64,000 nt of DNA, from assembly GCA_021845905.1 (NCBI GenBank), contig JAJZVA010000001.1, forward strand, positions 62,001 to 126,000, written 5' to 3'. Origin of the DNA: Pseudomonadota bacterium. Its GTDB lineage: Bacteria; Pseudomonadota; Alphaproteobacteria; Micavibrionales; UBA2020. This document shows, one piece after another, positions 1 to 31,477 of this stretch (positions within the stretch are counted from its first letter, which is position 1; every line of letters starts with the position of its first letter). Both the position numbers and the translations under genes were made by a program. Below the pieces are notes generated by a model, which saw only the letters and a program-made list of their open reading frames with translations, did not search any database and had not been told where the DNA came from.

Positions 1-11
1 GGGGGTATCTC

Positions 12-4488: not shown

Positions 4489-4504
4489 AATTTAATTCCT
4501 TTAA

Positions 4505-4922: not shown

Positions 4923-4932
4923 TCCAAAAACC

Positions 4933-4972: not shown

Positions 4973-5002
4973 GTATGCAGGCTTATAGCAAGCCGTTCTT
5001 TG

Positions 5003-5536
<534 letters not shown>

Positions 5537-5551
5537 GATGACGAAACCTTT

Positions 5552-7024: not shown

Positions 7025-7028
7025 TATT

Positions 7029-8468: not shown

Positions 8469-9187
8469 AACGTTTTTCCCTCGTTCCCACATGACGATCT
8501 GCCGGAAGAAACCTCTGTCAGCCGCCGCTCGCCCCTGAAATCGTCAAGCGCGCGAAGGTCCACCGTGTCGAACCGCTCGCGGATGCGGAACAGGAATAGG
8601 CCGATAACGATGAATGCGACAAGAATGGAGAAAGCAATGCTGATTTCCACCATGAAAGGCATGCCTTTCGTTCCCGCGGCGGCAAGGATCAGCCCGTTCT
8701 CCAGTGACAGAAATCCGATGATCTGGCTCACGGCGTTGCGGCGCGTCACCATCATCAGCAGCCCCAGCAGCAGGACGGCGAGTGCGAACGCAAGATCCTC
8801 GCGCTCCAGCAGCGCAGTGTTCGCCGCCGCTTTGAGCATGACATCCATGGAGAGCGCCACCAATGCCATGCCGACCAGCATGATGGTTCCGGTTCCGGTG
8901 CCAGCCACGGTCTCGATCTCGCGGTGGATGCGAAGGCGTATGACGATGTGGTGTAGCGCGAATGGAATAAGGAGCGCCTTGAACAAAAGCGCGATCAGTG
9001 CTGTGATATAAAGCTGCGGCGCATGCTGGAGAACGGCCTGCCATGCGACAGCAAGCGAGAGAAGAAAGGCTTGCAAGGCGTAAATGTTGATAAGCGCGTA
9101 GAGGCGCTTTTGATAGAGCATCATCAGGCTGGCGAGCATCAGGGCGCCAGCCAGCATATGTGCGACGCTGTAGTCCATAACGCTCAT
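8465..9187 (-). CDS. hyfE: Ehr complex membrane subunit (HyfE-like)
   Basis: Integral membrane protein of 240 residues with about 6-7 hydrophobic helices. The C-terminal part (SLENGLILAAAGTKGMPF) is NuoK-like. It belongs to the HyfE/hydrogenase-4 membrane subunit family. ATG directly follows the stop of the HyfC-like gene (TAG-ATG). The C-terminal 30 or so residues are hydrophilic. Role: part of the ion-conducting membrane arm. Confidence 0.85.
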   Translation of the reverse strand: MSVMDYSVAHMLAGALMLASLMMLYQKRLYALINIYALQAFLLSLAVAWQAVLQHAPQLYITALIALLFKALLIPFALHHIVIRLRIHREIETVAGTGTGTIMLVGMALVALSMDVMLKAAANTALLEREDLAFALAVLLLGLLMMVTRRNAVSQIIGFLSLENGLILAAAGTKGMPFMVEISIAFSILVAFIVIGLFLFRIRERFDTVDLRALDDFRGERRLTEVSSGRSSCGNEGKTL

Positions 9188-10144: not shown

Positions 10145-12138
10145 AGCGCCAGCACCCCTAAAAGAAGAATCAGGGACAGAAAGACGATGCCCAGATAGTG
10201 CCGGATCGACAGAAACTGGAAGCGGTCCATGCGCTCGGCAACGCAGAAGACGCGCGACGAGATCCGATCGTAAATTCCTTCCCATGCGGCATCGTGCGAT
10301 TCCTGAACAAGGCGTGCGGGGGCGGAACTGCCGGGCGGCGGCATCTCCACGCGCTCAGAGGCGCGAAAAAGAGAACGGCCAAAGACGCGGCGGATGGGTT
10401 GCGCGAAGCTCTCCGCCGTGTATTGCGTCTGAGGGTCCTCGAGAGGAAAGCCGCAGTCCCATGCGGGCGCGCGGCGTGGCGTGCCGCCGCCTAAACGCCG
10501 CGCGAGAAGAGCGACCAGCCCTGCGGAGAAAACCATAAAGGCAAAAACAAGAAGACCGTTATATGAGCTGCGCACGGCAGAGACCGGAACAAGCGTCAGT
10601 CCTTCGGCATGATGCGGCATGTGAGCGCCGGTCATCTCTCGAACGGTGGGGGTGAGGACATTGATAACGAAACCCGGAAAAATTCCCGCCAACAGGCAGA
10701 GTAGCGCAAGCATAAACATAGCAGTCAGCGAAAAACGATCCGTTTCCACGGCGTTTTTGGCCTTCTCCGTGCGCGGGCGGCCAAGAAAAACGATGCCATA
10801 GACCTTGACGAAACAGGCAGCCGCGAGCGCAGCCGCCAGCGCCAGCATCGCACCGGAGGCAGGAACCAGCATCTTCAAGCCCCAGTGTGAGGGCACAGGC
10901 CCCTGAATGATCGCCTGAAACGTCAGCCATTCTGAAGCGAAACCGTTGAAGGGCAGCAGAGCGGAAATAGCCGCGCAGCCGACCAGAAAGACGAAAGCTG
11001 TCTGTGGCATGCGGTGGATCAGGCCGCCGAGGCGCTCCATGTCGCGCGTCTGCGCCGCCGTCTGCACCGCGCCCGCGCCGAAAAACAGCAGGCTCTTGAA
11101 AAGCGAGTGGTTGAAAACATGGAACAGCGCGGCGGTAAAGGCTAGCGCCGCAAAGGCGTCCTGCCCGTTTGTCTTGAACACAAGCGCGAGGCCGAGGCCG
11201 ATAAAGATGATGCCGATGTTCTCCACGGTGGAAAAGGCGAGAAGTTTTTTGAGGTCATGTTGCATCAGCGCGTAGAGAACACCCATCACCGCCGTTATGC
11301 CGCCGAGCGTCAGTACGGCCATGCCGCCGTTCTCTCCGCTGCCGCCGAGCAAACCGAAAACGATGCGGATGAAGCCGTAAACCGCAACCTTGGTCATGAC
11401 CCCGCTCATCAGTCCGGAAACGTGCGACGGCGCGGCGGGATGCGCGAGAGGCAGCCAGACATGTAAAGGATAAATCCCCGCCTTGGAACCCGCGCCGAGC
11501 AGCGCCAGAAACAGCACAAGCGCGGCGCGCCATGACAGGACGGGATTGTGCCGCATTTCGGAGAAGACGTAATGCCCGTGCGGCCCTGCGAGCAGGGCGA
11601 AGGCCAGCAGCAGCATGAAGGTGCCAAAACTCGCCATGACGATATAGACGTATCCGGCGTGCAGGTTCTCCTTCTCGCGGTGGTGCGCCATGACCAGCGC
11701 CCACGAGGTCAGCGACATAAACTCCCAAGCAAACAGGAACGTGAAGGCGTCTCCCGCCAGAACGACGAGATTCATCGCGGCGATGAACGCGGGATAGAAC
11801 GGAAGCACACGGTGCGGCGCTTCTTCGTGCCGCCCGTAGCCGAGCGCATAAAAGCTGGCCGCTGCAACGCCGAGATTGACGATGACTAGGAAAAACGCCG
11901 CCAGCGCGTCAAGTTTGAAATGTGCGCCAGTCCACGCCAGCCCTATCGGCAGAACCATCTCCATGTCCGCCGCGGATGTCAGTAAATGGCCGATGCCGCC
12001 CCACAGCATGATCAGGGAAAGAACGAAGCAGGCGGCATAAACAGGAATGGATGCATTGAAAAGACGGTTTGTCGTTGCGCTCATGACAGAGAGGACGAAA
12101 AGAAGAGCGACGCAACACAGCAGAGCCGCGATAGACAT
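10135..12138 (-). CDS. hyfB: Ehr complex large antiporter-like subunit (HyfB-like)
   Basis: Membrane subunit of 667 residues in the NuoL/HyfB family, with about 15-16 transmembrane helices. Conserved segments include HVWLPLAHPAAPSHVSG, the GVMTKVAVYG helix and HDLKKLLAFSTVENIG, which carry the lysines and histidines used for ion translocation. The C-terminus extends about 100 residues beyond the core, ending in one more helix. It is the first structural gene of the operon, 4 bp after the XRE regulator. Its presence with HyfF gives two predicted pump modules. Confidence 0.9.
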   Translation of the reverse strand: MSIAALLCCVALLFVLSVMSATTNRLFNASIPVYAACFVLSLIMLWGGIGHLLTSAADMEMVLPIGLAWTGAHFKLDALAAFFLVIVNLGVAAASFYALGYGRHEEAPHRVLPFYPAFIAAMNLVVLAGDAFTFLFAWEFMSLTSWALVMAHHREKENLHAGYVYIVMASFGTFMLLLAFALLAGPHGHYVFSEMRHNPVLSWRAALVLFLALLGAGSKAGIYPLHVWLPLAHPAAPSHVSGLMSGVMTKVAVYGFIRIVFGLLGGSGENGGMAVLTLGGITAVMGVLYALMQHDLKKLLAFSTVENIGIIFIGLGLALVFKTNGQDAFAALAFTAALFHVFNHSLFKSLLFFGAGAVQTAAQTRDMERLGGLIHRMPQTAFVFLVGCAAISALLPFNGFASEWLTFQAIIQGPVPSHWGLKMLVPASGAMLALAAALAAACFVKVYGIVFLGRPRTEKAKNAVETDRFSLTAMFMLALLCLLAGIFPGFVINVLTPTVREMTGAHMPHHAEGLTLVPVSAVRSSYNGLLVFAFMVFSAGLVALLARRLGGGTPRRAPAWDCGFPLEDPQTQYTAESFAQPIRRVFGRSLFRASERVEMPPPGSSAPARLVQESHDAAWEGIYDRISSRVFCVAERMDRFQFLSIRHYLGIVFLSLILLLGVLALWF

Positions 12139-17499: not shown

Positions 17500-18729
17500 A
17501 TGTCAGAAACAGCGAAAAAAAACATCAAAAAAGGCGATGTGCTGATCCGTGAAGGCGACCGCGGAGACAGCGCCTACGTCATTGAATCCGGCAGCGTTGA
17601 AATCCTGATCCTGCGCGGCGGAAACCTGATGCAGATCGGCACGCGCGGCCCCGGATCGATTATCGGAGAAATGGCGATGATCGACGACAAGCCGCGCACG
17701 GCGACCATCCGCGCCATCGAAGACTGCACCGTCATAGAGATTTCGCGCGCGGACTTCGCGCATCGCGTCGAAAGCGCCGACCCGATCGTCAAAATGGTGA
17801 TGCGTGTGATCATGGCCCGCTACCGCGACATGATCGCCCGCACGCAGTTCATGCAAATGCCAGCTTATATGACTGCCGCCGTCGAAAACGCCGAAAACAG
17901 CGGTGAGTTGCACGATCTTGCCGTAAATGCGATAAAAATCCACAACGAACTCAAAGCCGCTCTCGAAAAAGGCCAACTGGTGCTTTTCTTTCAGCCGATC
18001 GTTGCCGTGCAGGAGATGAAAATCGCCGGATTCGAGGCGTTGATGCGCTGGCGACACCCGGAAAAAGGGCTTATTTCACCGGGCGTTTTCATCCCCGTCG
18101 CAGAGGAAAGCGGCCTGATCACGGAGATGTCGCACTGGGCGCTCGGTGTTTCCTGCGATGCGCTCAAGGCCATTCACGCCGTTGTCAATCCGGGTACTAC
18201 GGACGCGCACGGACCTTTTGTCAGCGTCAATTTCTCCGTCAAGGATTTCTCTGCGGGAAATTTCTCAAAGCAAATCAAATCCGTCCTGCAAAGCAAAAAA
18301 ATAAACCCCGCGAACATTCATCTCGAAATCACAGAGAGCCTGCTCATGGAAGCGCCCGGCGCCGCAAAAGACGCGCTTGAGGAATGCAGGAGTTTCGGGA
18401 CAAGCGTTTCGATAGACGACTTCGGCACCGGCTATTCGTCTTTGAGCTATCTGCACCACTTTCCCATCGACTCCCTCAAGATCGACCAGAGTTTCATACG
18501 CGCGATGAGCCGCGATCCGGCAAGCGAGATCCTCGTCAAGTCCATCATCGGCCTTGCCCACAACATGAACATCAAGGTCATCGCCGAGGGCATTGAAACG
18601 CCCGAAGAAGCGGCCATGCTGAAAAAAATGGGTTGCGAGGAGTGTCAGGGATACTGGTTTGCGAAACCCATGCCGCTTGAGGATTTATTGACCTTCGTTA
18701 AAAATTGGACGCCCCCGCTAATTGCCTAG
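17500..18729 (+). CDS. Cyclic-nucleotide-binding domain fused to EAL c-di-GMP phosphodiesterase
   Basis: 409-residue two-domain signalling protein. The N-terminal CRP-like cNMP-binding domain (about 5-120) keeps the phosphate-binding cassette: GEMAM with G56/E57, and PRTA with R66/T67/A68, residues that contact cAMP in family members. The EAL domain (about 150-400) has FEALMRW, VSVNFS, EITES, the IDDFGTGYSSLSYL loop, K in DSLKIDQSF, AEGIE and QGYWFAKP, i.e. the metal- and substrate-binding set of active phosphodiesterases. No membrane segment or HTH. Expected role: cytosolic hydrolysis of c-di-GMP gated by cAMP. It lies directly upstream of the RTX protein gene and near a predicted adenylate cyclase. 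Confidence 0.92.
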   Translation: MSETAKKNIKKGDVLIREGDRGDSAYVIESGSVEILILRGGNLMQIGTRGPGSIIGEMAMIDDKPRTATIRAIEDCTVIEISRADFAHRVESADPIVKMVMRVIMARYRDMIARTQFMQMPAYMTAAVENAENSGELHDLAVNAIKIHNELKAALEKGQLVLFFQPIVAVQEMKIAGFEALMRWRHPEKGLISPGVFIPVAEESGLITEMSHWALGVSCDALKAIHAVVNPGTTDAHGPFVSVNFSVKDFSAGNFSKQIKSVLQSKKINPANIHLEITESLLMEAPGAAKDALEECRSFGTSVSIDDFGTGYSSLSYLHHFPIDSLKIDQSFIRAMSRDPASEILVKSIIGLAHNMNIKVIAEGIETPEEAAMLKKMGCEECQGYWFAKPMPLEDLLTFVKNWTPPLIA

Positions 18730-18866
18730 TCTTTTTTTAGAAAAATATCATATATATATCAATATCTTAATATATGACAAAAGCTATTATTTTTTCATAG
18801 TCGATTAATGTTTTTTCTATACAATGAAAAGGATAAAGGTCTGCGCATAAGACACGGGGGTGAATC

Positions 18867-21800
18867 ATGCCAAAAGACATGCCGATGGATACCAACATCA
18901 AAGCCGTTGCAGGGCACCCCGTCTCTTTGCCGGGCGGAGATTTCATCGCCAATGCCGTGATGTCCCGCGTCGGACAAGACCTTCACCTTACCGCGGACGG
19001 ACACACCGTCGTGGTTCAGGGATATTTCGCGATGGGCAACCCGCCAGAGCTTGTCACGCACGACGGCGCGCATCTTTCCCCCGCGATGGTCGATTCCTTC
19101 GTGCAAACCGAACACCCGGGTCAATACGCCTCCTCCGGACAAATCGTCAATGATGCAAGCCCGGCAGGCACGGTAACGCAGGTCGTGGGCAGGGATGAAA
19201 TCGTCCGCGCGGACGGCACGCACGTCATTGCCGCGGTAGGAACGCCCATCTATCAGGGCGATATCGTCCAAACGTCGAAAACCGGCGCCGTCAACATCAT
19301 GTTCTCGGATCACACCACGTTCGCCGTCAGTGAAAACGCGCGCATGTCCGTGGACAAATACATTTATCACTCGGCGGAGCACACCGGCAGCACGTTCTTC
19401 TCCATGTTGCAGGGCATGTTCGTCTATACCAGCGGCCTGATCGGCAAAACGGAACCCGGAAACGTCAATATCGAGACGCCGGTCGGCTCTATCGGCATTC
19501 GCGGAACCGTCATCGCCGGAGACATCCACATGTCGGGCCCGAGCAATATCACCATCGTCAACGGCGCCATCACCGTCACCAACGGCAGCGGCACCATCGA
19601 TATGAGCAACAGTTTTCAGACGGTCTCCGTTGAAAACTATAACACGCCTCCGCAAGCCGTTTTCATGAACGCCTCGACTTTCGGTTCCGAATACAACTCG
19701 CTCAGCACGGTCGCCGCCGACACATTGCACCATTTCATCAGCATCGCCCCTACGGAACCGGCGACGACCACGCCCGCGACGTCGACTTTGACGACGGATG
19801 CGCTGACAACGTCAACGGCGCCTGTCGAGTCTTCCACCAGCAGCGCCTCTGTGACATCATTCAGTTCGACAAGCTCCACGACGACATCGTCTTTCAGCAC
19901 TGCCGGAACCGCGAGCTTCAGCACGACGACATCGAGCGGCACAACAAGCGCATCTCCGACATCCACGTCGCTGACCTCCTCAACGGGAACGGCGACAACG
20001 ACAACCACGTCAACATCGACGACAACAACGTCTTCTGCAACATTGCCGTTCGGCATACAGCTGGCGGTGGATTCCGGCTACAGCAACACAGACCACATTA
20101 CCAACGATCCGACATTGCAGGCGATCAATCTCGCCACCACGGCCGCGACCGTCATGTACGCCATCGAAGCGGGTTCGACATGGAATTCCGCGGGGGCTTC
20201 GTGGTCGGCAACCCAGCCGACGCTGACCGACGGCACCTACACGGCGGAAGCGCAGGAATATAATTCAAAAGGCGCCGTCATCAGCACGTCAGGCCCCATA
20301 ACCTTCACGCTGGACACAACGCAGCCGACACTGACAAACGTGACCGGCGTAACGGCAACTGACGCGAACAACCAATACATGACCAACGAGAGCCTTTCGG
20401 CAACGTTGCACTTTAGCGAAGCCATGTCCATCACGGCGGGAGAAATAACCAACGTCACCGGAACTACCCCCGCCACCATTGCGGTGGATTCAATCGTCAG
20501 CGACGGCTACAACTCCGTCACGGGCACCTATGACTACACGGTGACATACCACGCGACGTCCTCTGGCAATATCCAAATTCAGGTGGCCGGACAGGATTTG
20601 GCAGGTAACAGCATAAACGGATCTGAGACCATTCAGGGAACGGCTGTACTCGTTCACGACATAGAATTGCAGTTCGCGCAGAATTATACGAAGGGAACCG
20701 CGACGACAGCAGACGACGGCATCGCGCAGTTCGCACAAAACGGCACTGTCTTCGGCAACATTCAAGTCGCATCAGGTGTGACGGTTGACCATTATGTCGT
20801 TCAAACAATAAACGGACAGGAATATAACGCCGCCACGGGCGCCGTGCAAGCCATCTCCGATCCCGGAAATACCATTTTCTCCATCGACTCGAGCGGCAAT
20901 ATCGTCGTTGACAATTATCTGGCGCTTGCCACCAATGCGGCTATAAACTCAAGCGGCACGCTTAGCATTTTGATCGACGCATATAATGCGTCGAATACCA
21001 TGATCGATCAGATCAGCAGGACAGTCGTCATCAATCCCGACCCCTACTTGACGGCTACCACGCCGACCGTGGGGCTTGGAAATCTCACAGGCAGCTACCT
21101 GATCAGTACGGACACGGCCAATGTCACACTCACCGGCACGTCCGGCGCTGACATGCTGGTCGGAGGCTCCGGCAACGACACGCTGATCGGCAACGGCGGT
21201 CAGGACGTCCTCCTTGGCGAAGGCGGAAACGACACCATTCAGGTTTTCGACTCGACCTTCGTCGCCATTGACGGCGGCACCGGCGTCAACACGCTTGATA
21301 TAGGCGGCGCCACGGCGCCCACGAACACCGTCGTGAATACCACGGCGGCAAACGGCTCGACAATCACTTCCGCGGATCAGGCCAATATCCACAATATCGC
21401 CAACATCACGCTCGACACCTCGCCCATAGGCGGAGCGAACGGCGTGTTGCTGAACAACACGAGCGTCTTCGCCATGGCCAACGACGGCGCCGGAAACCAC
21501 ATCCTGAACGTGAGCGGCATCAACGGGGAAACGGGCAACTATGTCGCGATAACGCCGGACACGAATACCGGCTCCGTCACGGACCTTCACCTGACGTCGG
21601 GAACCTGGGGCGTATCGCAGACCCTCACCTATTCCGGCGTGTATACAGACAGCGCGGGCGTCAACCAGAACGTGACGCTCAACGTGCAGGAATTCTCTGC
21701 CTCGGGCAATACCTTCAGCAACGCAAATTCGCTTGTCGTCGAGGATGCGCAACATCAGATCACTGGCGCGACGCAATTCAGCACGACCGGGAGCCTGACC

Positions 21801-22412
21801 GGCACGGCAAACGCGGACTATCTCACTCTTGGCGGCACGGCAGGCGGGTTCAGGATAGATGGCGGCGGCGGGCATGACATTCTCGTCGGCAACGCGAGCG
21901 GCGCGACGACAATCAACATCGAGGATGCGAACTTCGCTTACGTTGACGGCGGCTTCGCCATGGGGGGCGCCCAGAACATCAACACGCTGCAACTCGACAG
22001 CGGCGGCACGGCGGCGCAGTTCTCGCTCGATTTCAGCAACCCGACAACACTGGCTGAAAACGCAAGCCTCGGGATCGTCAAAGACATGTCGCAAATCGAC
22101 CTTGGCACATCGTCCACGGGTCAGGGCAACAATGTCGCCTTGAGCGTGCAGGACGTCTTCAACATCACGCAGGCGGATCCCTCAGGCAATCACACGCTGA
22201 CGATCGTGGAAAACGAAGCCACGACAAAGGACGGCGTCGCAACTGTGCTCACCAGCAGCGGGTTCGCTATGACCGGGGATACAACCGCAGGCGGAACGAT
22301 GGCCGGCAACATGACCTTTACGGGCTCCTACAGCGGGCATACCGTCACGCTGGTCATTGCCGAAACGGCGGCTTCCGGGGCAACCGGCCACATCACCATC
22401 GCCACGGCCTGA
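18867..22412 (+). CDS. Giant FecR-domain/RTX repeat surface or secreted protein (putative T1SS substrate)
   Basis: 1181-residue acidic, glycine/threonine-rich protein without an N-terminal Sec signal. A FecR-like domain lies at about 101-220 (GTPIYQGDIVQTSKTGAV to GSIGIRGTVIAGDI). A Ser/Thr tract spans about 300-395, almost entirely S and T. Ig-like regions follow at about 400-740. Calcium-binding RTX nonapeptides (GGSGNDTLIGNGGQD) are at about 755-790, with a weaker set near 998-1030. The FecR part resembles in layout the N-terminal retention modules of LapA-type adhesins. RTX repeats plus the adjacent ABC/HlyD/TolC genes argue for type I secretion of an adhesin or biofilm-matrix protein. 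GGGGGTG precedes the ATG as Shine-Dalgarno. Confidence 0.88.
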   Translation: MPKDMPMDTNIKAVAGHPVSLPGGDFIANAVMSRVGQDLHLTADGHTVVVQGYFAMGNPPELVTHDGAHLSPAMVDSFVQTEHPGQYASSGQIVNDASPAGTVTQVVGRDEIVRADGTHVIAAVGTPIYQGDIVQTSKTGAVNIMFSDHTTFAVSENARMSVDKYIYHSAEHTGSTFFSMLQGMFVYTSGLIGKTEPGNVNIETPVGSIGIRGTVIAGDIHMSGPSNITIVNGAITVTNGSGTIDMSNSFQTVSVENYNTPPQAVFMNASTFGSEYNSLSTVAADTLHHFISIAPTEPATTTPATSTLTTDALTTSTAPVESSTSSASVTSFSSTSSTTTSSFSTAGTASFSTTTSSGTTSASPTSTSLTSSTGTATTTTTSTSTTTTSSATLPFGIQLAVDSGYSNTDHITNDPTLQAINLATTAATVMYAIEAGSTWNSAGASWSATQPTLTDGTYTAEAQEYNSKGAVISTSGPITFTLDTTQPTLTNVTGVTATDANNQYMTNESLSATLHFSEAMSITAGEITNVTGTTPATIAVDSIVSDGYNSVTGTYDYTVTYHATSSGNIQIQVAGQDLAGNSINGSETIQGTAVLVHDIELQFAQNYTKGTATTADDGIAQFAQNGTVFGNIQVASGVTVDHYVVQTINGQEYNAATGAVQAISDPGNTIFSIDSSGNIVVDNYLALATNAAINSSGTLSILIDAYNASNTMIDQISRTVVINPDPYLTATTPTVGLGNLTGSYLISTDTANVTLTGTSGADMLVGGSGNDTLIGNGGQDVLLGEGGNDTIQVFDSTFVAIDGGTGVNTLDIGGATAPTNTVVNTTAANGSTITSADQANIHNIANITLDTSPIGGANGVLLNNTSVFAMANDGAGNHILNVSGINGETGNYVAITPDTNTGSVTDLHLTSGTWGVSQTLTYSGVYTDSAGVNQNVTLNVQEFSASGNTFSNANSLVVEDAQHQITGATQFSTTGSLTGTANADYLTLGGTAGGFRIDGGGGHDILVGNASGATTINIEDANFAYVDGGFAMGGAQNINTLQLDSGGTAAQFSLDFSNPTTLAENASLGIVKDMSQIDLGTSSTGQGNNVALSVQDVFNITQADPSGNHTLTIVENEATTKDGVATVLTSSGFAMTGDTTAGGTMAGNMTFTGSYSGHTVTLVIAETAASGATGHITIATA

Positions 22413-22434
22413 CAGACGCGGCAAAGATGCAAAT

Positions 22435-24708
22435 TCAATGTTTGTCTTTGGCGACCCAGATGCCTCTCCATTCCGGAGCCGGAGGGTTTTGCTGAAAATT
22501 TGAAATGCGCTGACGATAGCACGCATAAAGGCCGGCGAGATCGGGGCGCAGATTTTCGCACGCGTCCGCGTGAACCAGCGCTTCTTCCCACTTTTGCGCG
22601 CGATAAGCCTCCAGCAAGCTCGACTGCGCGGATGACAATACCTTGAAAGTCTCCGATGCAGCCATGTCAGCATCCCCCAACAAGGTGTAAACGCGCTCAG
22701 GCTCGGTGCGCCCCTTGACAGTCAGCAGGTCGATTTCCAAAACGGCGAATTCAGGCGCCTGTTTCAGTACGGAGGCTGAAATCATTGTCTGTATCCCGTA
22801 GCCTTTGGTTTGCCCTTCGAGGCGCGACGCGAGATTGACCGTATCACCAAGCGCCGAATAGGCAAAGCGCTGCCGCGAACCCATGTTGCCGATGGAAGCC
22901 TGCCCTGTGTTTATGCCGATACCGGCACGCAATTCATGATACGGCTTGCCGTTTTTCTCTGCTTCATCACGAAGCTTTGCATTGACCGCATTCAGCGCCT
23001 CCAGCATCTGCAACGCCGCGGCGCAGGCGTGACGCGCATGATCGCGGTCATCGAGCGGCGCGTTCCAGAAGGCCATCATCGCATCGCCCATGTATTTGTC
23101 GACCGTGCCGCGGTTTTCCAGCACGCACGACGTCATCGGCGTCAGAAAATCGTTCATCATGCGGATGAGGTCGGCTGGATCCATGGATTCCGAAATGGTG
23201 GTGAAGTTGCGAATATCCGTGAACATCACGGAAATCTCGCGCACTTCGCCGCCCAGTTTCAGCTTGGCCGGATCTTTCGTCAGTTCTTCCAGCAGGTCCT
23301 GCGAGATATAATGGCCGAAAGCCTCGCGTATCGCCCTGCGCTCGGATTCAGAGCGCAGATTGTTCAGGACAGACGAGACAATGAAAATAACGATGACCGT
23401 CAAAGACGGATAAACCGGTGCGAACAAAAGATGATAATGCCCATAGGCATATATCGCGCCGCCGATTCCGCCTCCCAGCAAAAGCGCCACGATCAGGGTC
23501 AGAAGACCGGTACCGATAAAAGGCGAAAGAAAGATGATGCCGAGGCTGATAGCTCCTGTCGCGCACAGTTCAAAGCCCTTAAAATATCCCGGGCGGTAAA
23601 GATATTGGTGTTCGAGCATTTGCTCGAGCATTTCAGCATGCACTTCAACGCCGGGCAGGCTTGCGTTCAACGGCGAGGCGCGCAGATCAAACAGGCCGAT
23701 GGCCGATGTGCCGACGAGAATGATCCTGTCTTTCACCAGTTTCGCGATCGCAGGGTCGTCTTGCAATATCTTCCATGCCGGAATATACAAATGTCGCCAA
23801 TAACGATGTCCCGCGTAATAAACCCGCATCTTTCCGGAGGAATCCGTCGGGATGGTGTATCCTCCCACGCGTATGCTCTGAATGCCGTAACCTTGAGAAA
23901 CGCGCTGACCGTAGCTCTTGACGAAATAAATGCCTTTATGCAACGCGACCCGCAAAGCTTCCAGCGACAAGGACGGATACATTCTGACCTGCCCGTCAGG
24001 ACGTTCCTGACCGACGAGCATGGGGACGGAGCGTACGATGCCGTCTCCGTCCGGCCTCATCGCGAAACTTCCCTCGCCCGCGGATGCGTCAACGATGGCG
24101 GGCAAGGAAGTGGTAAAATAACGATAGGTAAAAATAAATTTCTGAGGATCGGGGTTTATCCCGTCGTTAAAAAAAGACGCTTTGAGCGTCGGCCTGCCAT
24201 GCGTCGACTGCCCGCTGGCGGCGGAGACGAAACCGATGACGACATTGCCTGTCTTGGCGATCGTTTTGGCGAACAGCGCGTCATTGTCCGGCAATGTTTC
24301 CAGTTTCTTTTCGACCGGAAGCAATGTGGGCGTTTGAGGCAGGTTTTTGGCGATGCGGGCGGGAGACGTCCTGTCATGCTCGGGGAAAACCATATCGAAA
24401 GCGATGGATTTCGCACCCATGCTTTTCAAAACCTCCGGTATCTTCGCAACCAGCGTGCGCGGCCAGGGCCACTGTCCGTAACGACGCAACGATGCTTCGT
24501 CTATATCGACGATCGCCACGCCTTTGATCGGCGAAGCGGCGGGCAGCGATTCCATCTGTCGCGGCATCATCCGATTGTAAGCGTCGAACGTCAGCTGGCG
24601 CCAGCGGTGAATGAAAGCGGGATCATGCATCCGCAACGCAACAAGCCCCGCCAGCAGCGTCAGAAGAAGAACGATCTGCGCCAGCCTGTTGGATACGATG
24701 CTGAGCAT
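22435..24708 (-). CDS. CHASE2-domain class III adenylate cyclase
   Basis: Membrane receptor-cyclase of 757 residues. The N-terminal helix (about 5-25) is followed by an extracytoplasmic CHASE2 sensor (about 35-345) and about three transmembrane helices (350-435). The cyclase domain is at about 460-640. Catalytic residues are present: metal aspartates in MFTDIRNF and GDAMMAF, adenine-selecting Lys in VDKYMGD and Asp in ALGDTVNLASRLE, and the transition-state Asn/Arg in the same motif. It should make cAMP. A C-terminal tail of about 80 residues looks helical. Start 24708 is preferred because ACGGAG lies upstream and it begins 1 base after the HlyD-gene stop; ATG at 24729 is possible. It is the last gene of the secretion operon and convergent with the RTX gene. 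Confidence 0.92.
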   Translation of the reverse strand: MLSIVSNRLAQIVLLLTLLAGLVALRMHDPAFIHRWRQLTFDAYNRMMPRQMESLPAASPIKGVAIVDIDEASLRRYGQWPWPRTLVAKIPEVLKSMGAKSIAFDMVFPEHDRTSPARIAKNLPQTPTLLPVEKKLETLPDNDALFAKTIAKTGNVVIGFVSAASGQSTHGRPTLKASFFNDGINPDPQKFIFTYRYFTTSLPAIVDASAGEGSFAMRPDGDGIVRSVPMLVGQERPDGQVRMYPSLSLEALRVALHKGIYFVKSYGQRVSQGYGIQSIRVGGYTIPTDSSGKMRVYYAGHRYWRHLYIPAWKILQDDPAIAKLVKDRIILVGTSAIGLFDLRASPLNASLPGVEVHAEMLEQMLEHQYLYRPGYFKGFELCATGAISLGIIFLSPFIGTGLLTLIVALLLGGGIGGAIYAYGHYHLLFAPVYPSLTVIVIFIVSSVLNNLRSESERRAIREAFGHYISQDLLEELTKDPAKLKLGGEVREISVMFTDIRNFTTISESMDPADLIRMMNDFLTPMTSCVLENRGTVDKYMGDAMMAFWNAPLDDRDHARHACAAALQMLEALNAVNAKLRDEAEKNGKPYHELRAGIGINTGQASIGNMGSRQRFAYSALGDTVNLASRLEGQTKGYGIQTMISASVLKQAPEFAVLEIDLLTVKGRTEPERVYTLLGDADMAASETFKVLSSAQSSLLEAYRAQKWEEALVHADACENLRPDLAGLYACYRQRISNFQQNPPAPEWRGIWVAKDKH

Positions 24709-24709
24709 G

Positions 24710-26029
24710 CTACTGCTCCGTAAAGGCACGATCCTTCGTGCGCAAAACCGGTTTGAGGAGATAGGTGAGCAGCGTGCGCCGACCGACGATCACGTCCGTT
24801 TCAGCAACCATGCCGGAGAATATCCTGTACGGCGCTTTTTTGGTGCCGAGGTAGTTTTTGTCCGTGCGCACGTCGATCTGGAAGAAGGCATGGCCCTGAC
24901 TGTCCTCGATGGTGTTTGGGCTGATACGGACCAGTTTGCCGGCGAGCGTGCCGTAGATTTCAGGATCGTAGGCGGTGATCTGAACCTTCACTTTCTGGCC
25001 CGGGCGGAGAAACGCGACATCCTTGGGAGCGATGCGCGCGCGGATCACAAGACTCTCGTTCAAAGGTACGATCTCGACCAGCTTTTGCGCCGGTTCGACG
25101 ACGCCGCCGACGGTTTTGACGTTCACTTGCTGGACAACGCCATCGACAGGAGAACGCAATTCGGAATGGTTGACCTTGTCGTTGACCGAACGCAAGCTTG
25201 CCGTCAGCGTTGAAAGCTTCGCTTCCGTGTCGTTCATTTGCCCGAGCGCGTCGGAGCGGAACGCGCCTATCTTTTCGTTTTTCTTTTTGCTGGCGGCGCG
25301 CAGTTTCGCCTCCAGCGACCGGGCGCTGTCATAGGCGCTGGCGAGATTTCCCGAGGTATCGTTCAGTGCGCGCTCATCCTTGATGAGTTCGATCTCCGGG
25401 ATGGCTTTCGCCGCCGCAAGCCGCGTGTCGATATCGACTTGCTTTTGCAGCAAAACCTTGCTTTTTTTCAACTGGGCGATGCTGGCCTGCACCTCGGCGA
25501 GGTTTGCGCTCGCTTCCTGCACCTGATCCTGAATGATGTTGAGCGCGGTCGCCAGCTCTTCCTGCCGCGACTGGTAAAGCTTTTCCTCGTTGGCCGCGAT
25601 ATTGGGAAAGTTTTTGGCGACATCCGAAGGGATTTTGAATTTTTCGCCGGCGGATTCCGCCTGTAGCCGCGCCTCGCGCGCCTCAAGCGCCGCTTTCTGC
25701 GCCTCGATGCCCTGCCCTTCGGATGCATATTGCACGTCGGCGATGCGCATCAGCACCTGCCCTTTTTTGACAACGTCGCCCTCATGCACGAGAATGGCGG
25801 AAACGATACCTCCTTCAAGGCTCTGCACAACCTGCACGTCGCCGGACGGCATCACCTGTCCCATGCCGCGCACCTGCTCGTCGATATGCGAGTTGGCCAT
25901 CCACACGAACATCCAGACGACAAGAAGCACGACGGATACAAGGAACGTCTGCGCGGCGCGGCTGGGCTTGAGATGCGCCGCCGCTTCAAGCTCTGACATA
26001 AATTCAAGATCTTCGCTTTCCGTATCCAT
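24710..26029 (-). CDS. HlyD-family type I secretion membrane fusion protein
   Basis: Periplasmic adaptor of 439 residues linking the ABC exporter to TolC. One N-terminal transmembrane helix (about 28-48, FLVSVVLLVVWMFVWM) is followed by the first half of the lipoyl domain (EGGIVSAILVHEGDVVKKGQ). A long alpha-helical coiled-coil hairpin spans about 95-285. The second half of the lipoyl/barrel (SPVDGVVQQVNVKTVGGVV) follows, and then a C-terminal beta domain. The gene starts 3 bp after the ABC gene and leads into the CHASE2 cyclase. Confidence 0.93.
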   Translation of the reverse strand: MDTESEDLEFMSELEAAAHLKPSRAAQTFLVSVVLLVVWMFVWMANSHIDEQVRGMGQVMPSGDVQVVQSLEGGIVSAILVHEGDVVKKGQVLMRIADVQYASEGQGIEAQKAALEAREARLQAESAGEKFKIPSDVAKNFPNIAANEEKLYQSRQEELATALNIIQDQVQEASANLAEVQASIAQLKKSKVLLQKQVDIDTRLAAAKAIPEIELIKDERALNDTSGNLASAYDSARSLEAKLRAASKKKNEKIGAFRSDALGQMNDTEAKLSTLTASLRSVNDKVNHSELRSPVDGVVQQVNVKTVGGVVEPAQKLVEIVPLNESLVIRARIAPKDVAFLRPGQKVKVQITAYDPEIYGTLAGKLVRISPNTIEDSQGHAFFQIDVRTDKNYLGTKKAPYRIFSGMVAETDVIVGRRTLLTYLLKPVLRTKDRAFTEQ

Positions 26030-26032
26030 CGC

Positions 26033-28201
26033 TCAATCCTTCGATACAGTGACTTTGCCGGCGTTGAGCGCCTGCAACACGTCGTCGCGCGGCCCGTCGG
26101 CAACCACTTTTCCGTTATCCATAACGATCAACCTGTCGATGACCTTCAGCAAGGCAGGCTTGTGCGTCACCAGAACGAAGGTCTTGTCCTTGATGAAAGG
26201 CTCGAGGTTGTTGAGGATCATGTTCTCCGTCGCCGTATCCATGGCGTTGGTCGGCTCGTCAAGGATGATCACCGGCGTATCCATGATGAGCGTGCGCGCC
26301 AGCGCGACGGATTGCCGTTGCCCGCCGGAAAGCCCGTCGCCGCGTTCGCCGACCGGCGCGTCGTAGCCCATCGGATGGCGGCGGACGAAATCATGAACGC
26401 CCGTCAGCTCGGCTATTTTGAGCACTTCCTCGTCGGTGGCGCGCAATCGACCCATGACGATATTCTCGCGCACCGTGCCGCTCATCAGCATCGTGTCCTG
26501 CCCCATGTAGGCGATATTGCGGCGCAAGTCGGCGGGGTCTATCTGGCGGATGTCCGTGTCGTCCACCAGAATGGTGCCGGACGACGGCTCGAAGAAATTG
26601 ACCATCAGTTTGACAAGCGTGGTCTTTCCGGAGCCGATGCGCCCGACCACGGCCACTTTTTCGCCGGGCTTGATATTGATGTTGATATTTTGCAGCACCG
26701 GGCGCCCGGCTTGCGGATAGGAGAACGTCAAATCGCGGAACTGAAAATGCCCTTTAAGCTGCGGGCGATGCAGGAACTTCTTGTCGCGCGGCCGTTCGAC
26801 CGGCTGGCGCATCACGCCGTCGAGCGTGCGGTAGGCCGAGCGCGCCTGATGATAGCGGTTGATCAGCGAGGCCATCTGCCCGACGGGCGCGATCGCGCGG
26901 GCGCCGAGAATGATGCAGGCCATCAGTTCGCCTTCCGTCATCGTCCGGTGCTGGATGGCGAACATGCCGCCGAGCATGATCATGACAGCGGACATCTTCT
27001 GAATGAAAATGGAGAAATTGACCACCATGCCCGAATAAAACCGCGACTGCTGCCCCGCTTCCGAAGCGCGCGCGACGTAATGCGCGTAATTGGCGCGGAT
27101 ATGCCCCTCACCGCCGACGCCCTTGATCGTTTCGAGATTGCCGAGCGCCTCGACCAGCAAACCATGCTGTTGCTCGCCGGTCTTCATCGCCTGATGCACC
27201 TTGCGCCGCACGGGCAGTTGCATGACGTAGCCGGTCAGCAGGACGACGACATAAAAAGCCAGAACCAGCAATGCAAAATCAAATCCCGCGATCAGCCAGA
27301 CAGCCACAACGAACAGCAGGGAAAACGGAAAGTCGACAAGCGCCGTCATTGTCGCGGAATTGAAAAACTCGCGCAGGGAGTCAAATTCCTTGAGATTATT
27401 AGCAAACGCGCCGGTCGAACCGGGTCGATGGCCGAGCCGCATGTCGAGCACCTGGCTGAACAATCGTTGGGCGATGATGACGTCGAAGCGGCGGCCGGCG
27501 ATGTCTATGAAATAGGCGCGCAGCGTGCGGATGAGGATATCGAAAACGTAGATCGAACTCGCGCCGATCACCAGCACCCAGCCGGTCGAAAAAGCGTTGT
27601 TCGGCAGCACGCGGTCGTAAAACCCCATGGAGAAGATCGGGCTGGTGAGCGCGAAGATATTGATCAGCAGCGCCGCGACGGCCACGCGTATGTAGATATC
27701 CTTGTTTTCGATCACATTGCCCCAGAACCAGTGCTCGGACAAAGGCGCGCCTTCACCGCCATCGCCCTGATGGTTGGGCCTGATATAAATGCAATAGCCT
27801 GAATAGTCCTTCGAGATATCCCTGAGGCTGGCGCTTTTTTCCTCCTTGGTCACGGGATCGAGCGTGACGCAGACATCGCCGCTGCCGCGTTGCAGAAGAA
27901 CAACGGCTTTTTTCTTCTTTGTGATGATCACGACGGGCGCGACCTGCGCGGGTATTTTCTCAAGCGGGCGCTTGATGATCCGCGCCTTGAACCCGGCGCG
28001 ATCCGCCGCCTGACAAAAAAGCTTGGGCGTCATCCCGGCCTTGCCGACGGGCAAGCCAGCCTGCAATGCGGGGGCAGAGCGTGTATGCCCGAAATGGCCG
28101 GTCACGAAAACGAGCGCCTCAAGCAGGCTGTCTTCGCGGCTTTGCGGCGCCGTATCTTCAGCCTTTCGGCTTTGCTGTTGCATTTGAGGTTGCGGTGTCA
28201 T
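26033..28201 (-). CDS. Type I secretion ABC transporter with degenerate C39-like domain (LapB type)
   Basis: Inner-membrane exporter and ATPase of 722 residues. The N-terminal C39-peptidase-like domain (about 20-145) has no catalytic Cys at the expected position (VFVTGHFGH), so it should bind and not cleave substrate, as in RTX exporters. The membrane domain is at about 165-455. The ATPase domain has Walker A GRIGSGKTTL, signature LSGGQRQS and Walker B VIILDEPTN. ATG 28201 is used; a TTG two codons upstream is possible. It overlaps the TolC gene by 44 bp. It probably exports the RTX protein encoded convergently at 18867-22412. Confidence 0.93.
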   Translation of the reverse strand: MTPQPQMQQQSRKAEDTAPQSREDSLLEALVFVTGHFGHTRSAPALQAGLPVGKAGMTPKLFCQAADRAGFKARIIKRPLEKIPAQVAPVVIITKKKKAVVLLQRGSGDVCVTLDPVTKEEKSASLRDISKDYSGYCIYIRPNHQGDGGEGAPLSEHWFWGNVIENKDIYIRVAVAALLINIFALTSPIFSMGFYDRVLPNNAFSTGWVLVIGASSIYVFDILIRTLRAYFIDIAGRRFDVIIAQRLFSQVLDMRLGHRPGSTGAFANNLKEFDSLREFFNSATMTALVDFPFSLLFVVAVWLIAGFDFALLVLAFYVVVLLTGYVMQLPVRRKVHQAMKTGEQQHGLLVEALGNLETIKGVGGEGHIRANYAHYVARASEAGQQSRFYSGMVVNFSIFIQKMSAVMIMLGGMFAIQHRTMTEGELMACIILGARAIAPVGQMASLINRYHQARSAYRTLDGVMRQPVERPRDKKFLHRPQLKGHFQFRDLTFSYPQAGRPVLQNININIKPGEKVAVVGRIGSGKTTLVKLMVNFFEPSSGTILVDDTDIRQIDPADLRRNIAYMGQDTMLMSGTVRENIVMGRLRATDEEVLKIAELTGVHDFVRRHPMGYDAPVGERGDGLSGGQRQSVALARTLIMDTPVIILDEPTNAMDTATENMILNNLEPFIKDKTFVLVTHKPALLKVIDRLIVMDNGKVVADGPRDDVLQALNAGKVTVSKD

Positions 28202-29504
28202 TTTCAAAAGCCTCGCGCAGGTCGCCCATCGCGTTCAAGAGCTGGAAACGGGCCAAAAGACTGCGGTAGCTGGCGTCGACCTGCGCCGCCTGCGCTTCGA
28301 AAAGCTTGGCGCGCGCTTCAATGATCTGAAGGTTCGTCTGTTTTCCACCCTGAAACTGGGCAAGGAAATTCTTGAGGATCGTCTCGCTTTCGGTTTCCTG
28401 CTCGGTCAGCAGGGCATACTGCCGGTCCACCGTCTGCACGGCGGTGAATTTCTGGCGCACGTCGTGTTCGACCGTGCGGACGATTTCATCGCGCTTGTCC
28501 ATCGCGGCCTGTTCCTGATCGCCGTATTTGTCGACGCGGTCTATCTGGCTGCCGCCCGTCGAAAAACTCCATGCCATCTTGATCAGTCCTTCTGCGTCGC
28601 TTGTATAGCCGCCGAGGTCGTATTTTTCGTTATCCTTGGTATAAGAGACTTCGGCGCTGACCTGCGGCATGAGATCCGACCTGACGGCATCCTTGTCGCT
28701 CATGGCGGCGTTGACAAGTTTGTCCGCCGACAGGATATGGCTGTTCGTCCGCACGGCTGTGGCAAGCGCCTGATCTATCGTGGCGGGGACCAGTCCGTTC
28801 CAAACCGGCGCGCCCAGTTCGAGTTCCGATGCGGGCGCTTCTCCGGTCACCTCCATATAATCGGCTTCGGCCTGTTGATAGGCGTCCTGATAGCCGAGCT
28901 GGGTATTCTGCGCTTGCGCGTAGATAGCGTCCGCCTGCAGAAGGTCGGCTTCGTTCGCCGCGCCGTTCTTGACCATGAGCGCGATATTCTTGCGGCGTTT
29001 TTCGATATCGGACTCGTAACTGCGGGCCAGTTGATACAAAGTCGCCGTCCGCATCAGGTTGAGATGCGCGCGGGCGGCGCGCAACGCGATATCCTGCTTT
29101 GTTCCGGTGAGGTCATATTCAGCGGCGGCAAAACGGTCTTGTGCGCCGCTGACGCGGTTTTCGACGTTAAATCCGGTGAACAAAGGTTGCGTCAGGGAAA
29201 TGGTTTCCATCTGTTTCCAGCTGGCGCTGGCGCCACCGGAGGCCGTATCCGCGCGGGTCGTAAGGTCGTTATTGTGGACGCGCCCGGTTTCCGTCTGCAC
29301 GGACAGCACCGGAAAATAACCCGCGCGTTGTTCCGCTATGTTCAATTTGGCGGCTGAGGCCGTCGCCATGCCTTCCCTGATCTGCGGATGGGTGGAAACC
29401 GCGAGATTGACCGTATCGGCAATCGTCTCCGCATGGGCGCGCGGAAAAATGCATAGCGCCGTGGTCAAAGACAAGGCAAAAGCAAGTTTCCTAACCGATG
29501 GCAA
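28158..29504 (-). CDS. TolC-family outer membrane channel of the type I system
   Basis: Outer-membrane export duct of 448 residues. A signal peptide ends AHA at about residue 25. Two internally related halves follow with long helices typical of TolC (GMATASAAKLNIAEQRAGYFP and NYEPDIEKR-like helices). There is no downstream Pal-like feature. The start is TTG, preceded by AGGGGGG 5 bases upstream; no ATG lies close by. First gene of the tolC-abc-hlyD-cyclase operon. Confidence 0.9.
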   Translation of the reverse strand: MPSVRKLAFALSLTTALCIFPRAHAETIADTVNLAVSTHPQIREGMATASAAKLNIAEQRAGYFPVLSVQTETGRVHNNDLTTRADTASGGASASWKQMETISLTQPLFTGFNVENRVSGAQDRFAAAEYDLTGTKQDIALRAARAHLNLMRTATLYQLARSYESDIEKRRKNIALMVKNGAANEADLLQADAIYAQAQNTQLGYQDAYQQAEADYMEVTGEAPASELELGAPVWNGLVPATIDQALATAVRTNSHILSADKLVNAAMSDKDAVRSDLMPQVSAEVSYTKDNEKYDLGGYTSDAEGLIKMAWSFSTGGSQIDRVDKYGDQEQAAMDKRDEIVRTVEHDVRQKFTAVQTVDRQYALLTEQETESETILKNFLAQFQGGKQTNLQIIEARAKLFEAQAAQVDASYRSLLARFQLLNAMGDLREAFENDTATSNATAKPKG

Positions 29505-29672
29505 ATAATCCCCCCTAAAATCCGCGACAAATGGCAGTCTGAAACCCTTGAATTATAGAATGCCTGACTTGTTAACCTTTCGCAACCATTCCTTGTCTTG
29601 CGGATATGATTATTAAGCTATACAATCTGAAAAACTTCGCTATTTCGTCAAAGGGAGATTGACGTTTATCTC

Positions 29673-30554
29673 ATGTCGTCAAGGTTTAAAAGAACGGCTT
29701 ACAGAGCCTGGCACAGGGCGGTCTTTCGCTTGCAAACCGCCTGCGGCATGCTGGATGTCAAGCGCCAGCCCGCGCAAACGATATTCCTCCATATTCCCAA
29801 AACAGCCGGATCGTCGGTGAACGAGTATTTTGCCAGTTTCACCGGAAGCCGCGGCTCTGATCGCTTCCTGCCGATCGACATGTACAAGGGCGACGATTAC
29901 TATTCCGAAGTCAGCGAAGAAGGGTTGGAAAAAGCCCACGCGGCCATGTATGTCACGGGCCATTTCGACTGGCATACGCTTGAAGCCATACGGCGTCCGG
30001 ATGCTTTCGTATTCACGTTTCTGCGCGATCCAGCCGAAAGGTTGCTGTCTTTCTATCATTACATCCACCACATCGACGAGCGCAAACAGACGAACAGCTC
30101 TCAGAAAGCATGGTTCAGCGGCCTGAAATCCCTGACGTTAGAAGAGTTTTGCGCGGGCGACGATCCGGACGGGCTTTACGCCACCAACAACCTGATGGTG
30201 CGCCAGATGGCAGGACGTCAAATCGGCACGGCGGCAACGGACGCGCCTTTCGAGGAGATGCTGGCGCAGGCGCTCAAAAACCTCCAGACGCTCAATTACG
30301 TCGGCTTTCAAAACAGCTTTGACAATGACTTTCAGGCGCTTGTGAAAAAAACCGGTTTTCCGCCGTTACGCCTGCCGAAGGAAAATATCACCAAAAAGCT
30401 GGCCGTTTATCCAGGCCCCGCATATGTTGCCAAAGCCGGAAAACAGGACATTCTCAAACTGGCGGCGCCGCGTCTGGCATGGGACATAAAGTTCTACCAG
30501 CAGGCGCAATCTCTGGTGCCGGAGATCAATAAGCGCCCTTTCATAAAAGCTTAG
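29673..30554 (+). CDS. Sulfotransferase family 2-like protein
   Basis: Probable PAPS-dependent sulfotransferase, 293 residues. The 5'-phosphosulfate-binding loop is visible as FLHIPKTAGSSV (about 37-48) and the 3'-phosphate-binding segment as FLRDPAERLLSFYHY (about 112-126). No signal peptide; an amphipathic basic N-terminus. These enzymes sulfate carbohydrates or other acceptors; the acceptor here is unknown. It stands between the secretion operon (divergent) and the GGDEF gene, so a surface glycan is a reasonable guess. Confidence 0.82.
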   Translation: MSSRFKRTAYRAWHRAVFRLQTACGMLDVKRQPAQTIFLHIPKTAGSSVNEYFASFTGSRGSDRFLPIDMYKGDDYYSEVSEEGLEKAHAAMYVTGHFDWHTLEAIRRPDAFVFTFLRDPAERLLSFYHYIHHIDERKQTNSSQKAWFSGLKSLTLEEFCAGDDPDGLYATNNLMVRQMAGRQIGTAATDAPFEEMLAQALKNLQTLNYVGFQNSFDNDFQALVKKTGFPPLRLPKENITKKLAVYPGPAYVAKAGKQDILKLAAPRLAWDIKFYQQAQSLVPEINKRPFIKA

Positions 30555-30664
30555 TTTAAATATAACACATTGAAAATAAATAATATTTTTTATTTTCCTA
30601 ATCTGGCATGATTCTCGCATGGCACTCCCTGTCAGTTCACAAACGCACAAGGGAGACAACGACC

Positions 30665-31477
30665 ATGACAACGTCCACATCTGAAAACAAATCCTCGGAA
30701 ATCGTCATCGACAGCCGCACGCTGGACCAGCAAATCTGGACGCTGATGGCAGACGACCAATGGCATCGCCATAAAGACGCACTCATCTTGTTGCAAAACG
30801 CGCACGCGCAGGTCAAAGCGGCGGAAAACCGCATCCGGGCGCAGGACAGGAAAATCTATGAGCTGGAACGTCTTGCGGCAACAGACTCCGTCACCGGGCT
30901 TCTCAACCGCCGCGGGTTCGAAAACTTCTGCGCGCAGGAGCTGGAACGCGCCCGCCGCCACAACACGCCGGGCAGCGTGCTGGTGCTCTTCGATCTCGAC
31001 AAGTTCAAAGAGATAAACGATACCTACGGCCATCAGGCCGGCGACGCCTGCCTGAAGAAAGTGGCCGAAACCCTGCGCCGCAAAATCCGCAGCGTCGATG
31101 CCGCGGCGCGCATGGGCGGAGATGAATTCGCCTTGCTCCTGTCCCACACCGACCCGGAAAAATCCGCCAACTGCCTCAACGAGATCAGGTATGTCATGGA
31201 TAACGTGCAACTCCTTTGGGAGCAACAGTTGCTCTCCGTCAAAACCAGCATGGGCATCAAATATTTTACCGGCGATATATCCTACGAAACCGCCTACCAT
31301 GCCGCCGATAAATCCCTTTACGAAAACAAGAGAGAACGGCATTTGATGCAACAGTCCGCCATGCGCAAGTCCTTTGCCAAGGACGGAAGCACTCAAATCC
31401 GCAACCTCGGCACGATCAACGCGCCGCAGGAAACATCAGTGCCCGGCATCGCGGGCTTCATGCTGAACGCCTTTTAA
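30665..31477 (+). CDS. GGDEF-domain diguanylate cyclase
   Basis: Soluble protein of 270 residues predicted to make c-di-GMP from two GTP. A short helical/coiled-coil N-terminal part (about 40-75) replaces a recognisable sensor domain. The GGDEF domain lies at about 78-230 with FDLDKFKEIND, GHQAGD and an intact active motif MGGDEFALL. RSVD five residues before GGDEF matches the RxxD inhibitory site. A 30-residue C-terminal tail follows. ATG 30665 is chosen because GGGAG lies 9 bases upstream. With the EAL protein at 17500 it forms a synthesis/degradation pair in one locus. Confidence 0.92.
   Translation: MTTSTSENKSSEIVIDSRTLDQQIWTLMADDQWHRHKDALILLQNAHAQVKAAENRIRAQDRKIYELERLAATDSVTGLLNRRGFENFCAQELERARRHNTPGSVLVLFDLDKFKEINDTYGHQAGDACLKKVAETLRRKIRSVDAAARMGGDEFALLLSHTDPEKSANCLNEIRYVMDNVQLLWEQQLLSVKTSMGIKYFTGDISYETAYHAADKSLYENKRERHLMQQSAMRKSFAKDGSTQIRNLGTINAPQETSVPGIAGFMLNAF

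Follow-up and report, generated by a model that had tools for sequence, protein, structure and literature searches.

Conserved gene neighbourhood in a Micavibrionales bacterium suggests that a predicted FecR/RTX surface protein and internal cyclic nucleotide signals are wired to each other

We analyzed a stretch of 64,000 nucleotides (the window, meaning this whole stretch) from a Micavibrionales bacterium (assembly GCA_021845905.1, contig JAJZVA010000001.1, forward-strand positions 62,001 to 126,000). The locus of interest lies at window positions 17500-31477, where eight open reading frames (ORFs) were taken as genes. It brings together a putative cyclic di-GMP (c-di-GMP) phosphodiesterase with a cyclic nucleotide-binding (CNB) domain, a predicted exported protein with a FecR-like head and RTX repeats, a predicted CHASE2 adenylate cyclase, which would supply cyclic AMP (cAMP), and a type I secretion system (T1SS). 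The features are as follows, in window coordinates and with lengths in amino acids (aa).

17500-18729, plus strand: CNB-EAL, a predicted c-di-GMP phosphodiesterase, Bd1971-like, 409 aa (Pfam cNMP_binding 80 bits, EAL 242 bits)
18867-22412, plus strand: FecR/RTX protein, a predicted exported surface protein of 1181 aa, with a FecR/retention head, a variable body and few RTX repeats
19155-19445, plus strand: retention-domain-like part of the FecR/RTX head, aa 97-193 (structure and profile match to 5ix9)
19254-19709, plus strand: predicted FecR cell-surface-signalling fold in the same head, aa 130-281, overlapping the retention part (4m0n, PupR 6ovk)
21132-21239, plus strand: block of RTX nonapeptide repeats of the FecR/RTX protein, aa 756-791 (PF00353, 36.7 bits)
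22435-24729, minus strand: predicted CHASE2 class III adenylate cyclase, 764 aa if translation begins at the first GTG, although the true start may lie lower (CHASE2 180 bits, Guanylate_cyc 86 bits)
24710-26029, minus strand: HlyD-type periplasmic adaptor of type I secretion (TIGR01843, 374 bits, cut-off 209)
26033-28207, minus strand: LssB-type T1SS ABC transporter with a C39-like domain (TIGR03375, 831 bits, cut-off 693)
28158-29504, minus strand: TolC-family outer membrane channel (Pfam OEP 158 bits; TIGR01844 187 bits, below its cut-off of 225)
29673-30554, plus strand: sulfotransferase-like gene, absent from the original prediction
30608-31477, plus strand: GGDEF diguanylate cyclase with an I-site, not conserved with the rest of the locus

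Read along the minus strand from 29504 down to 22435, the genes follow each other as TolC, LssB-type ABC transporter, HlyD and CHASE2 cyclase. Since these ORFs overlap or sit 3 bases apart, they form an apparent operon with the cyclase last, in agreement with the original prediction, which had been made from the sequence of the window. The FecR/RTX and cyclase genes are convergent and 22 bases apart. All of the proteins that the original prediction had named were recovered with their catalytic and ligand residues intact (Pfam, family models and alignments). Its description of the RTX protein as giant was overstated, given 1181 aa, three repeats and a single Pfam RTX match of 37 bits. Neither a sigma factor nor a TonB receptor was found by Pfam among the eight locus genes. 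A scan for promoters and terminators returned 12 and 17 sites, where chance alone would give 7.6 and 18.2, and was given no weight.

The best solved match of CNB-EAL is Bd1971 of Bdellovibrio bacteriovorus (6hq5/6hq4, E 4e-81, residues 8-401). As in Bd1971 (PMC6717892), a CNB domain is followed by an EAL domain, the similarity runs over the full length, and the residues that PMC12750041 names for contacts with ribose and phosphate and for base capping are matched. Among 35 aligned CNB-EAL proteins, one of them from the window, the cassette residues G56, E57, R66, T67 and A68 are invariant, as are E179, N244, E276, D306, D307, K327, E363 and Q383 of the EAL domain, and R107 is kept in 34. A small residue (A, G, S or T) is expected at the Ala94 position of Bd1971-type proteins (PMC6717892); it is A93 in the window and A, S or T in 33 of the 35. 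Where Bd1971 has N113, window-type proteins mostly carry L or I. Bd1971 hydrolyzes c-di-GMP only in the presence of cAMP or cGMP (PMC8846402; PMC6717892). CNB-EAL is a relative of this cAMP-activated phosphodiesterase, and its own catalysis and cAMP dependence are predicted.

Micavibrio is named among the holders of Bd1971-like proteins and is treated as alphaproteobacterial (PMC6717892), while NCBI files it under Bdellovibrionota. A contig search with the CNB-EAL alignment gave, among the best 80 of 593 rows, one clear named CNB-EAL relative, in the metagenome-assembled genome of Micavibrio sp. UWMA-0310 (L169, 48% identity); in most remaining rows of these 80, the EAL part alone was aligned. 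The group of the window thus apparently consists of relatives of the predator Micavibrio. Also, the genome of the window encodes a second CNB-EAL protein, 39% identical to the first and distant from the sole cyclase found (L109:7632-8924).

In the CHASE2 cyclase, residues D505, K545, D549, D629, N632 and R636 are invariant among 32 cyclases, that of the window included. We take D505 and D549 to be the metal-binding aspartates, K545 and D629 the adenine-specifying pair, and N632 and R636 the catalytic residues. This pattern fits a class III adenylate cyclase rather than a guanylate cyclase, and an adenylate cyclase activity is predicted on this basis. In the genome of the window (98.8% complete), the class III model PF00211 matches this cyclase alone. 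As the sole class III cyclase found there, it probably supplies the cAMP that CNB-EAL would read.

The cAMP supply was also surveyed in 30 genomes, hand-picked out of a set of 55 that comprised the genome of the window and 54 relatives of the same order. PF00211 matched in 23 of the 30, and in 14 of these, the window's genome among them, the CHASE2 cyclase was the only match. The seven genomes without a PF00211 match (G009, G019, G024, G038, G044, G047 and G050) lack the CHASE2 cyclase too, and they carry 0-2 CNB domains vs. 3-8 in the others. A class I cyclase was found in none of 13 genomes, with a matching E. coli positive control, so that the cyclase searches covered classes III and I. This locus probably drives the cAMP receptors of the cell, of which CNB-EAL is one among several.

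The whole set of 55 genomes was searched with CNB-EAL, the FecR/RTX protein, the cyclase and the ABC transporter. Presence calls were typed by hand from match tables with score cut-offs that we chose, and G013 and G042 were counted on partial genes. CNB-EAL and the cyclase occur together in 34 genomes, singly in 3 and 3, and are both missing in 15 (Fisher test 4e-8, phylogeny not corrected); in the 40 genomes that are at least 90% complete, the corresponding numbers are 28, 1, 2 and 9. By the same hand scoring, cyclase and FecR/RTX protein are both present in 32 genomes, with the cyclase alone in 5, the FecR/RTX protein alone in 1 and neither in 17. In 27 of the 34 genomes having both, window included, CNB-EAL and the cyclase are neighbouring genes that converge. 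Among these 27, the FecR/RTX gene lies between them in 15 (14 relatives and the window), and in 12 CNB-EAL stands directly beside the cyclase, with a gap of 0-376 bases. Of the 36 relatives with a cyclase, 27 have HlyD immediately ahead of it on its strand, at a gap of -4 to 30; in the remaining 9, HlyD is missing beside the cyclase, or the contig is cut or unmapped. This order, kept in relatives, points to more than chance.

The original prediction had presented cAMP, c-di-GMP and adhesin secretion as a single linked locus, and had called for a survey of linkage in relatives. The link between cyclase and CNB-EAL is borne out by convergence and co-occurrence, by the sole class III cyclase and by the likeness to Bd1971, and the link to secretion by the HlyD neighbour; the giant size of the RTX protein and the membership of the GGDEF enzyme are not supported. 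The GGDEF enzyme does carry the claimed inhibitory site, as RSVD precedes GGDEF and fits RxxD ahead of GGDEF, which we take as the rule for an I-site. It was rejected as a member of the locus, since it is labelled in no relative's map; nor is the sulfotransferase gene. As a separate observation, CNB-EAL of several relatives lies near a row of ORFs sized like mreB, mreC, mreD, pbp2 and rodA, of which MreB was checked in one locus (L129:9935-10975).

The FecR/RTX protein has no Sec signal obvious by eye. It contains three GGxGxD/N motifs, and its 29 homologues contain 0 to 4. A predicted AlphaFold2 (AF2) model of the first 285 residues reached a mean confidence (pLDDT) of 88. In this model, residues 130-281 resemble the FecR fold (4m0n, Z 16.6; PupR 6ovk, Z 15.9; also 4m0h; 137-138 residues aligned), and residues 97-193 resemble 5ix9, described as a 'cell surface anchoring domain' (Z 10.6, 75 of 76 residues, 2.1 A). 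A profile built from 25 heads, compared with PDB sequences at a limit of E 1, matched 5ix9 alone (E 4e-7). We take 5ix9 to be the retention domain of the RTX adhesin of Marinomonas primoryensis. The head of this predicted exported protein would thus join an RTX-adhesin anchoring match, seen in the sequence, to a FecR signalling match, seen in the modelled fold. The FecR label of the original prediction survives by this second route: the Pfam FecR model (PF04773) does not match the protein at E 0.01, but the head fold is FecR-like and smaller homologous proteins exceed the Pfam cut-off, and the assignment is kept because of these two points.

Identity to the 29 homologues is 42-65% over residues 1-240 (in blocks of 60) and 5-25% over residues 301-1181. 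Such a conserved head and divergent body are the pattern expected for a constrained inner and a variable outer part. The LapA retention model NF033682 gave 29.2 bits for the window protein, below its cut-off of 50, and 24-38 bits for 7 homologues. Toxin RTX and other toxin structures were found among the weak structure and sequence matches. Retention domains of RTX adhesins are reported to fold and then to exceed the size of the T1SS channel (PMC12077191).

Outside the order, a class-wide search of 289 genomes gave at least 21 genomes with a full-length CNB-EAL, and 20 of those loci were examined. In two genomes of one genus (G134, G248), genes for a FecR protein, CNB-EAL and a CHASE2 cyclase adjoin one another, with the CNB-EAL/cyclase pair head-to-head and no T1SS beside them; the start of the G134 FecR protein resembles a Sec signal peptide by eye. 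In G141, about 5 kb separate CNB-EAL from CHASE2. Of 25 CHASE2 loci, 7 had a FecR gene, vs. 1 of 78 control loci; in a first count, 6 of 20 CHASE2 loci had one, vs. none of 17 CNB-EAL loci from these genomes. These 25 (and 20) CHASE2 loci hold 26 (and 21) of 49 CHASE2 hits and their genomes all have CNB-EAL as well, some belonging to one genus, with the CHASE2/CNB-EAL loci of G134, G248 and G141 excluded; the control loci are of mixed taxa, L171-L248 having been chosen by EAL similarity. Other arrangements were also seen. Two genomes of one genus (G221, G317) have the order ABC-HlyD-CHASE2 cyclase-TolC-FecR/RTX, with FecR proteins of 2017 and 2086 aa and 22 RTX motifs each. In G247 and G339, TolC, HlyD and ABC genes surround the cyclase, and a FecR gene was not found there. 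In G096, a FecR gene, a Crp-type regulator and a CHASE2 cyclase stand in a row (L306:8207-11489), like the trio of Sinorhizobium meliloti discussed below.

We hypothesize that the locus is one functional unit, leading from a periplasm-anchored adhesin through CHASE2, cAMP and CNB-EAL to a loss of c-di-GMP, and we lean modestly towards this reading. The T1SS (TolC, LssB and HlyD) would export the FecR/RTX protein with its C-terminus first. Its folded head, from homology, would be held in the periplasm as a retention domain, and the variable body would lie on the cell surface. The CHASE2 cyclase, encoded with the exporter in the apparent operon, would respond to a condition in the periplasm by making cAMP; the likeliest inputs would be the retained FecR head and the state of the secretion channel. 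Binding of cAMP to the CNB domain would switch on c-di-GMP hydrolysis, as published for Bd1971, so that the net effect would be to turn a surface state into a fall of c-di-GMP. The steps from cyclase to cAMP, CNB-EAL and c-di-GMP rest on the Bd1971 homology, the one cyclase found and the conserved order. The steps before cAMP we infer because FecR proteins signal elsewhere, because retention, if it works, holds the head in place, and because CHASE2 is by family an extracytoplasmic sensor.

Several observations weigh against such a unit. CNB-EAL and cyclase are apart in G033, G041 and G042, and the locus is cut by contig ends in G002, G027, G030 and G034. By hand scoring, this FecR/RTX protein is missing from G001, G008, G013, G015 and G034, all of which have the cyclase; G008, G013 and G015 keep the CNB-EAL/cyclase pair nonetheless, and G008 and G015 also lack a T1SS beside the cyclase. 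The FecR gene is at another place in 9 genomes of one family, and G024 keeps CNB-EAL without a PF00211 cyclase. Outside the order, a CHASE2 gene lies near CNB-EAL in 3 of the at least 21 genomes, two of them from one genus, and 18 of the 25 CHASE2 loci gave no FecR match. A mirror-tree test on 25 genomes showed no clear excess for FecR head vs. CHASE2 (partial r 0.17), for CNB vs. CHASE2 (0.13) or for CNB vs. the catalytic domain (0.19); the FecR head gave a partial r of 0.42 with the ABC transmembrane part, the ABC nucleotide-binding column being noisy because part of the ABC sequences are fragmentary. The FecR gene that S. meliloti has near a CHASE2 cyclase is dispensable for signal perception and is itself a target of the regulator Clr (PMC5498481). 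As an observation apart, lone CNB proteins of about 130 aa are encoded near the relocated FecR gene in G025, G032 and G048 (L140:8107-8496, L144:9027-9410, L148:5527-5919).

The null result of the mirror-tree test, together with the shared descent of these genomes, which Fisher tests ignore, would suit a neighbourhood that is merely inherited order without functional coupling. We consider this very improbable, as the pair stays adjacent with or without FecR between its members and recurs head-to-head in another lineage. The presence of other CNB proteins in the genome of the window (two of Crp type, one double-CNB protein, one lone CNB protein and the second CNB-EAL), which also counts against a dedicated unit, leads to another explanation: cAMP may work mainly through Crp-family or other CNB proteins, with CNB-EAL as one target and the neighbourhood reflecting the shared ancestry of a cAMP regulon. 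The Crp-type neighbour of the FecR/CHASE2 cyclase genes in G096, as in S. meliloti, speaks for it, but the conserved neighbour in the maps of the relatives is CNB-EAL, and we give this explanation a low but appreciable probability. Also, the FecR/RTX protein could be a freely released RTX effector against prey, the expression of which the cyclase merely times, as has been suggested for hemolysin-like RTX proteins that Micavibrio would release into the predator-prey junction (PMC3189940). This seems quite improbable for a protein family with so few RTX motifs, a conserved retention-type head and a divergent body.

The direction of the signal can also be reversed, as the original prediction had it. 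In the Lap system, control runs inside-out, c-di-GMP governing the release of the adhesin (PMC13090378), and a cAMP-driven loss of c-di-GMP could likewise release the adhesin through a LapD-like receptor and a LapG-family peptidase, or act through expression. The retention-type head agrees with this, and the genome of the window has nine matches to the LapG-family model Peptidase_C93, five of them over the cut-off. The LapG cleavage motif [TPA]AAG occurs once or twice in 11 of the 29 homologues, scattered, and in a few of them shortly after the head. However, the window protein has no [TPA]AAG, and Pfam finds no Peptidase_C93 among the eight locus genes. The LapD N-domain (PF16448) was not matched in the genome of the window, though control genomes were silent as well, and LapD_N is absent by Pfam from its four other listed EAL proteins, to which this check was confined. 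We judge this direction distinctly unlikely for the locus. Independently, six same-strand ORFs of this genome each have a Peptidase_C93 (LapG-family/BTLCP) match, two of them over the cut-off (L110:859-6916).

With a FecR fold in the head, the direction in which the adhesin informs the cyclase is at least as reasonable as that in which c-di-GMP controls display. Within our reading of the locus as one unit, a more specific form would make the secreted adhesin a receptor: its retained head, with retention and FecR parts, would report contact with a surface or prey to CHASE2, and cAMP would act through CNB-EAL to lower c-di-GMP. CHASE2 and FecR would then be a general receptor pair, with an exchangeable CNB effector (CNB-EAL or Crp). 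We advance this form tentatively and give it a small though real chance.

Each known system shares a part of this arrangement. The accessible text on Bd1971 mentions no linkage of the kind seen here, where CNB-EAL adjoins a cyclase and an adhesin/T1SS locus (PMC6717892). The Lap system (LapA, LapBCE, LapD, LapG) has two things in common with the window, namely an exporter of the LssB family and a protein head that resembles the anchoring domain of an adhesin. It differs in that the window locus has no LapD, LapG or [TPA]AAG, scores below the cut-off of the retention model, and adds a FecR fold and a cAMP branch. The CyaD1/Clr/SMc02177 system of S. meliloti likewise places a CHASE2 cyclase near a FecR gene and uses a CNB effector, but this effector, Clr, is a transcription factor, and a T1SS is not mentioned in the accessible text (PMC5498481). 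A plant ribosomal protein has been reported as signal in S. meliloti, acting via an outer membrane barrel (PMC13001267). In FecR/PupR anti-sigma signalling, the fold predicted for residues 130-281 is shared, whereas the FecR fold of the window is joined to an exported protein, in a locus without sigma factor or TonB receptor. Finally, a FecR-LysM gene adjoins a CHASE2 receptor in a Burkholderia operon, but its output is a histidine kinase, and the accessible text mentions neither an adenylate cyclase nor RTX (PMC5192318).

Among open-access papers, with subscription papers mostly outside this scope, we found none joining CHASE2 with type I secretion, nor a FecR domain with an RTX adhesin. In what could be consulted of that literature on CHASE2 and FecR, on CHASE2 cyclases and c-di-GMP, and on cyclases and LapD or RTX adhesins, the arrangement is undescribed. 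To that extent, it is as unfamiliar as the original prediction had supposed.

Elsewhere in the window, a Cas9-like protein of 1088 aa (HNH_4 and RuvC_III) is encoded at 1222-4488 on the minus strand, in a low-GC stretch, beside an ORF that looks integrase-like by eye (12-1031, plus strand). No direct-repeat array was found in window positions 1-5600. This stretch is perhaps a small island. Also, complex-I/hydrogenase-like and antiporter-like subunits lie close together at 5552-12138 on the minus strand, where three ORFs were checked.

The conserved neighbourhood suggests that a surface protein and the internal signals of these bacteria are wired to each other. The factors sensed by CHASE2 are stated to be not known (PMC5192318), and the gene order supplies a candidate input, namely an exported protein with a FecR head. 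Also, it proposes a direct biochemical output in a genome with one class III cyclase found. If our reading of the locus as one unit is true, two second messengers would be joined at the protein level and tied to attachment in relatives of predatory bacteria. If the adhesin moreover signals from the outside in, this would be the reverse of the Lap pathway, and a T1SS adhesin could carry information into the cell.

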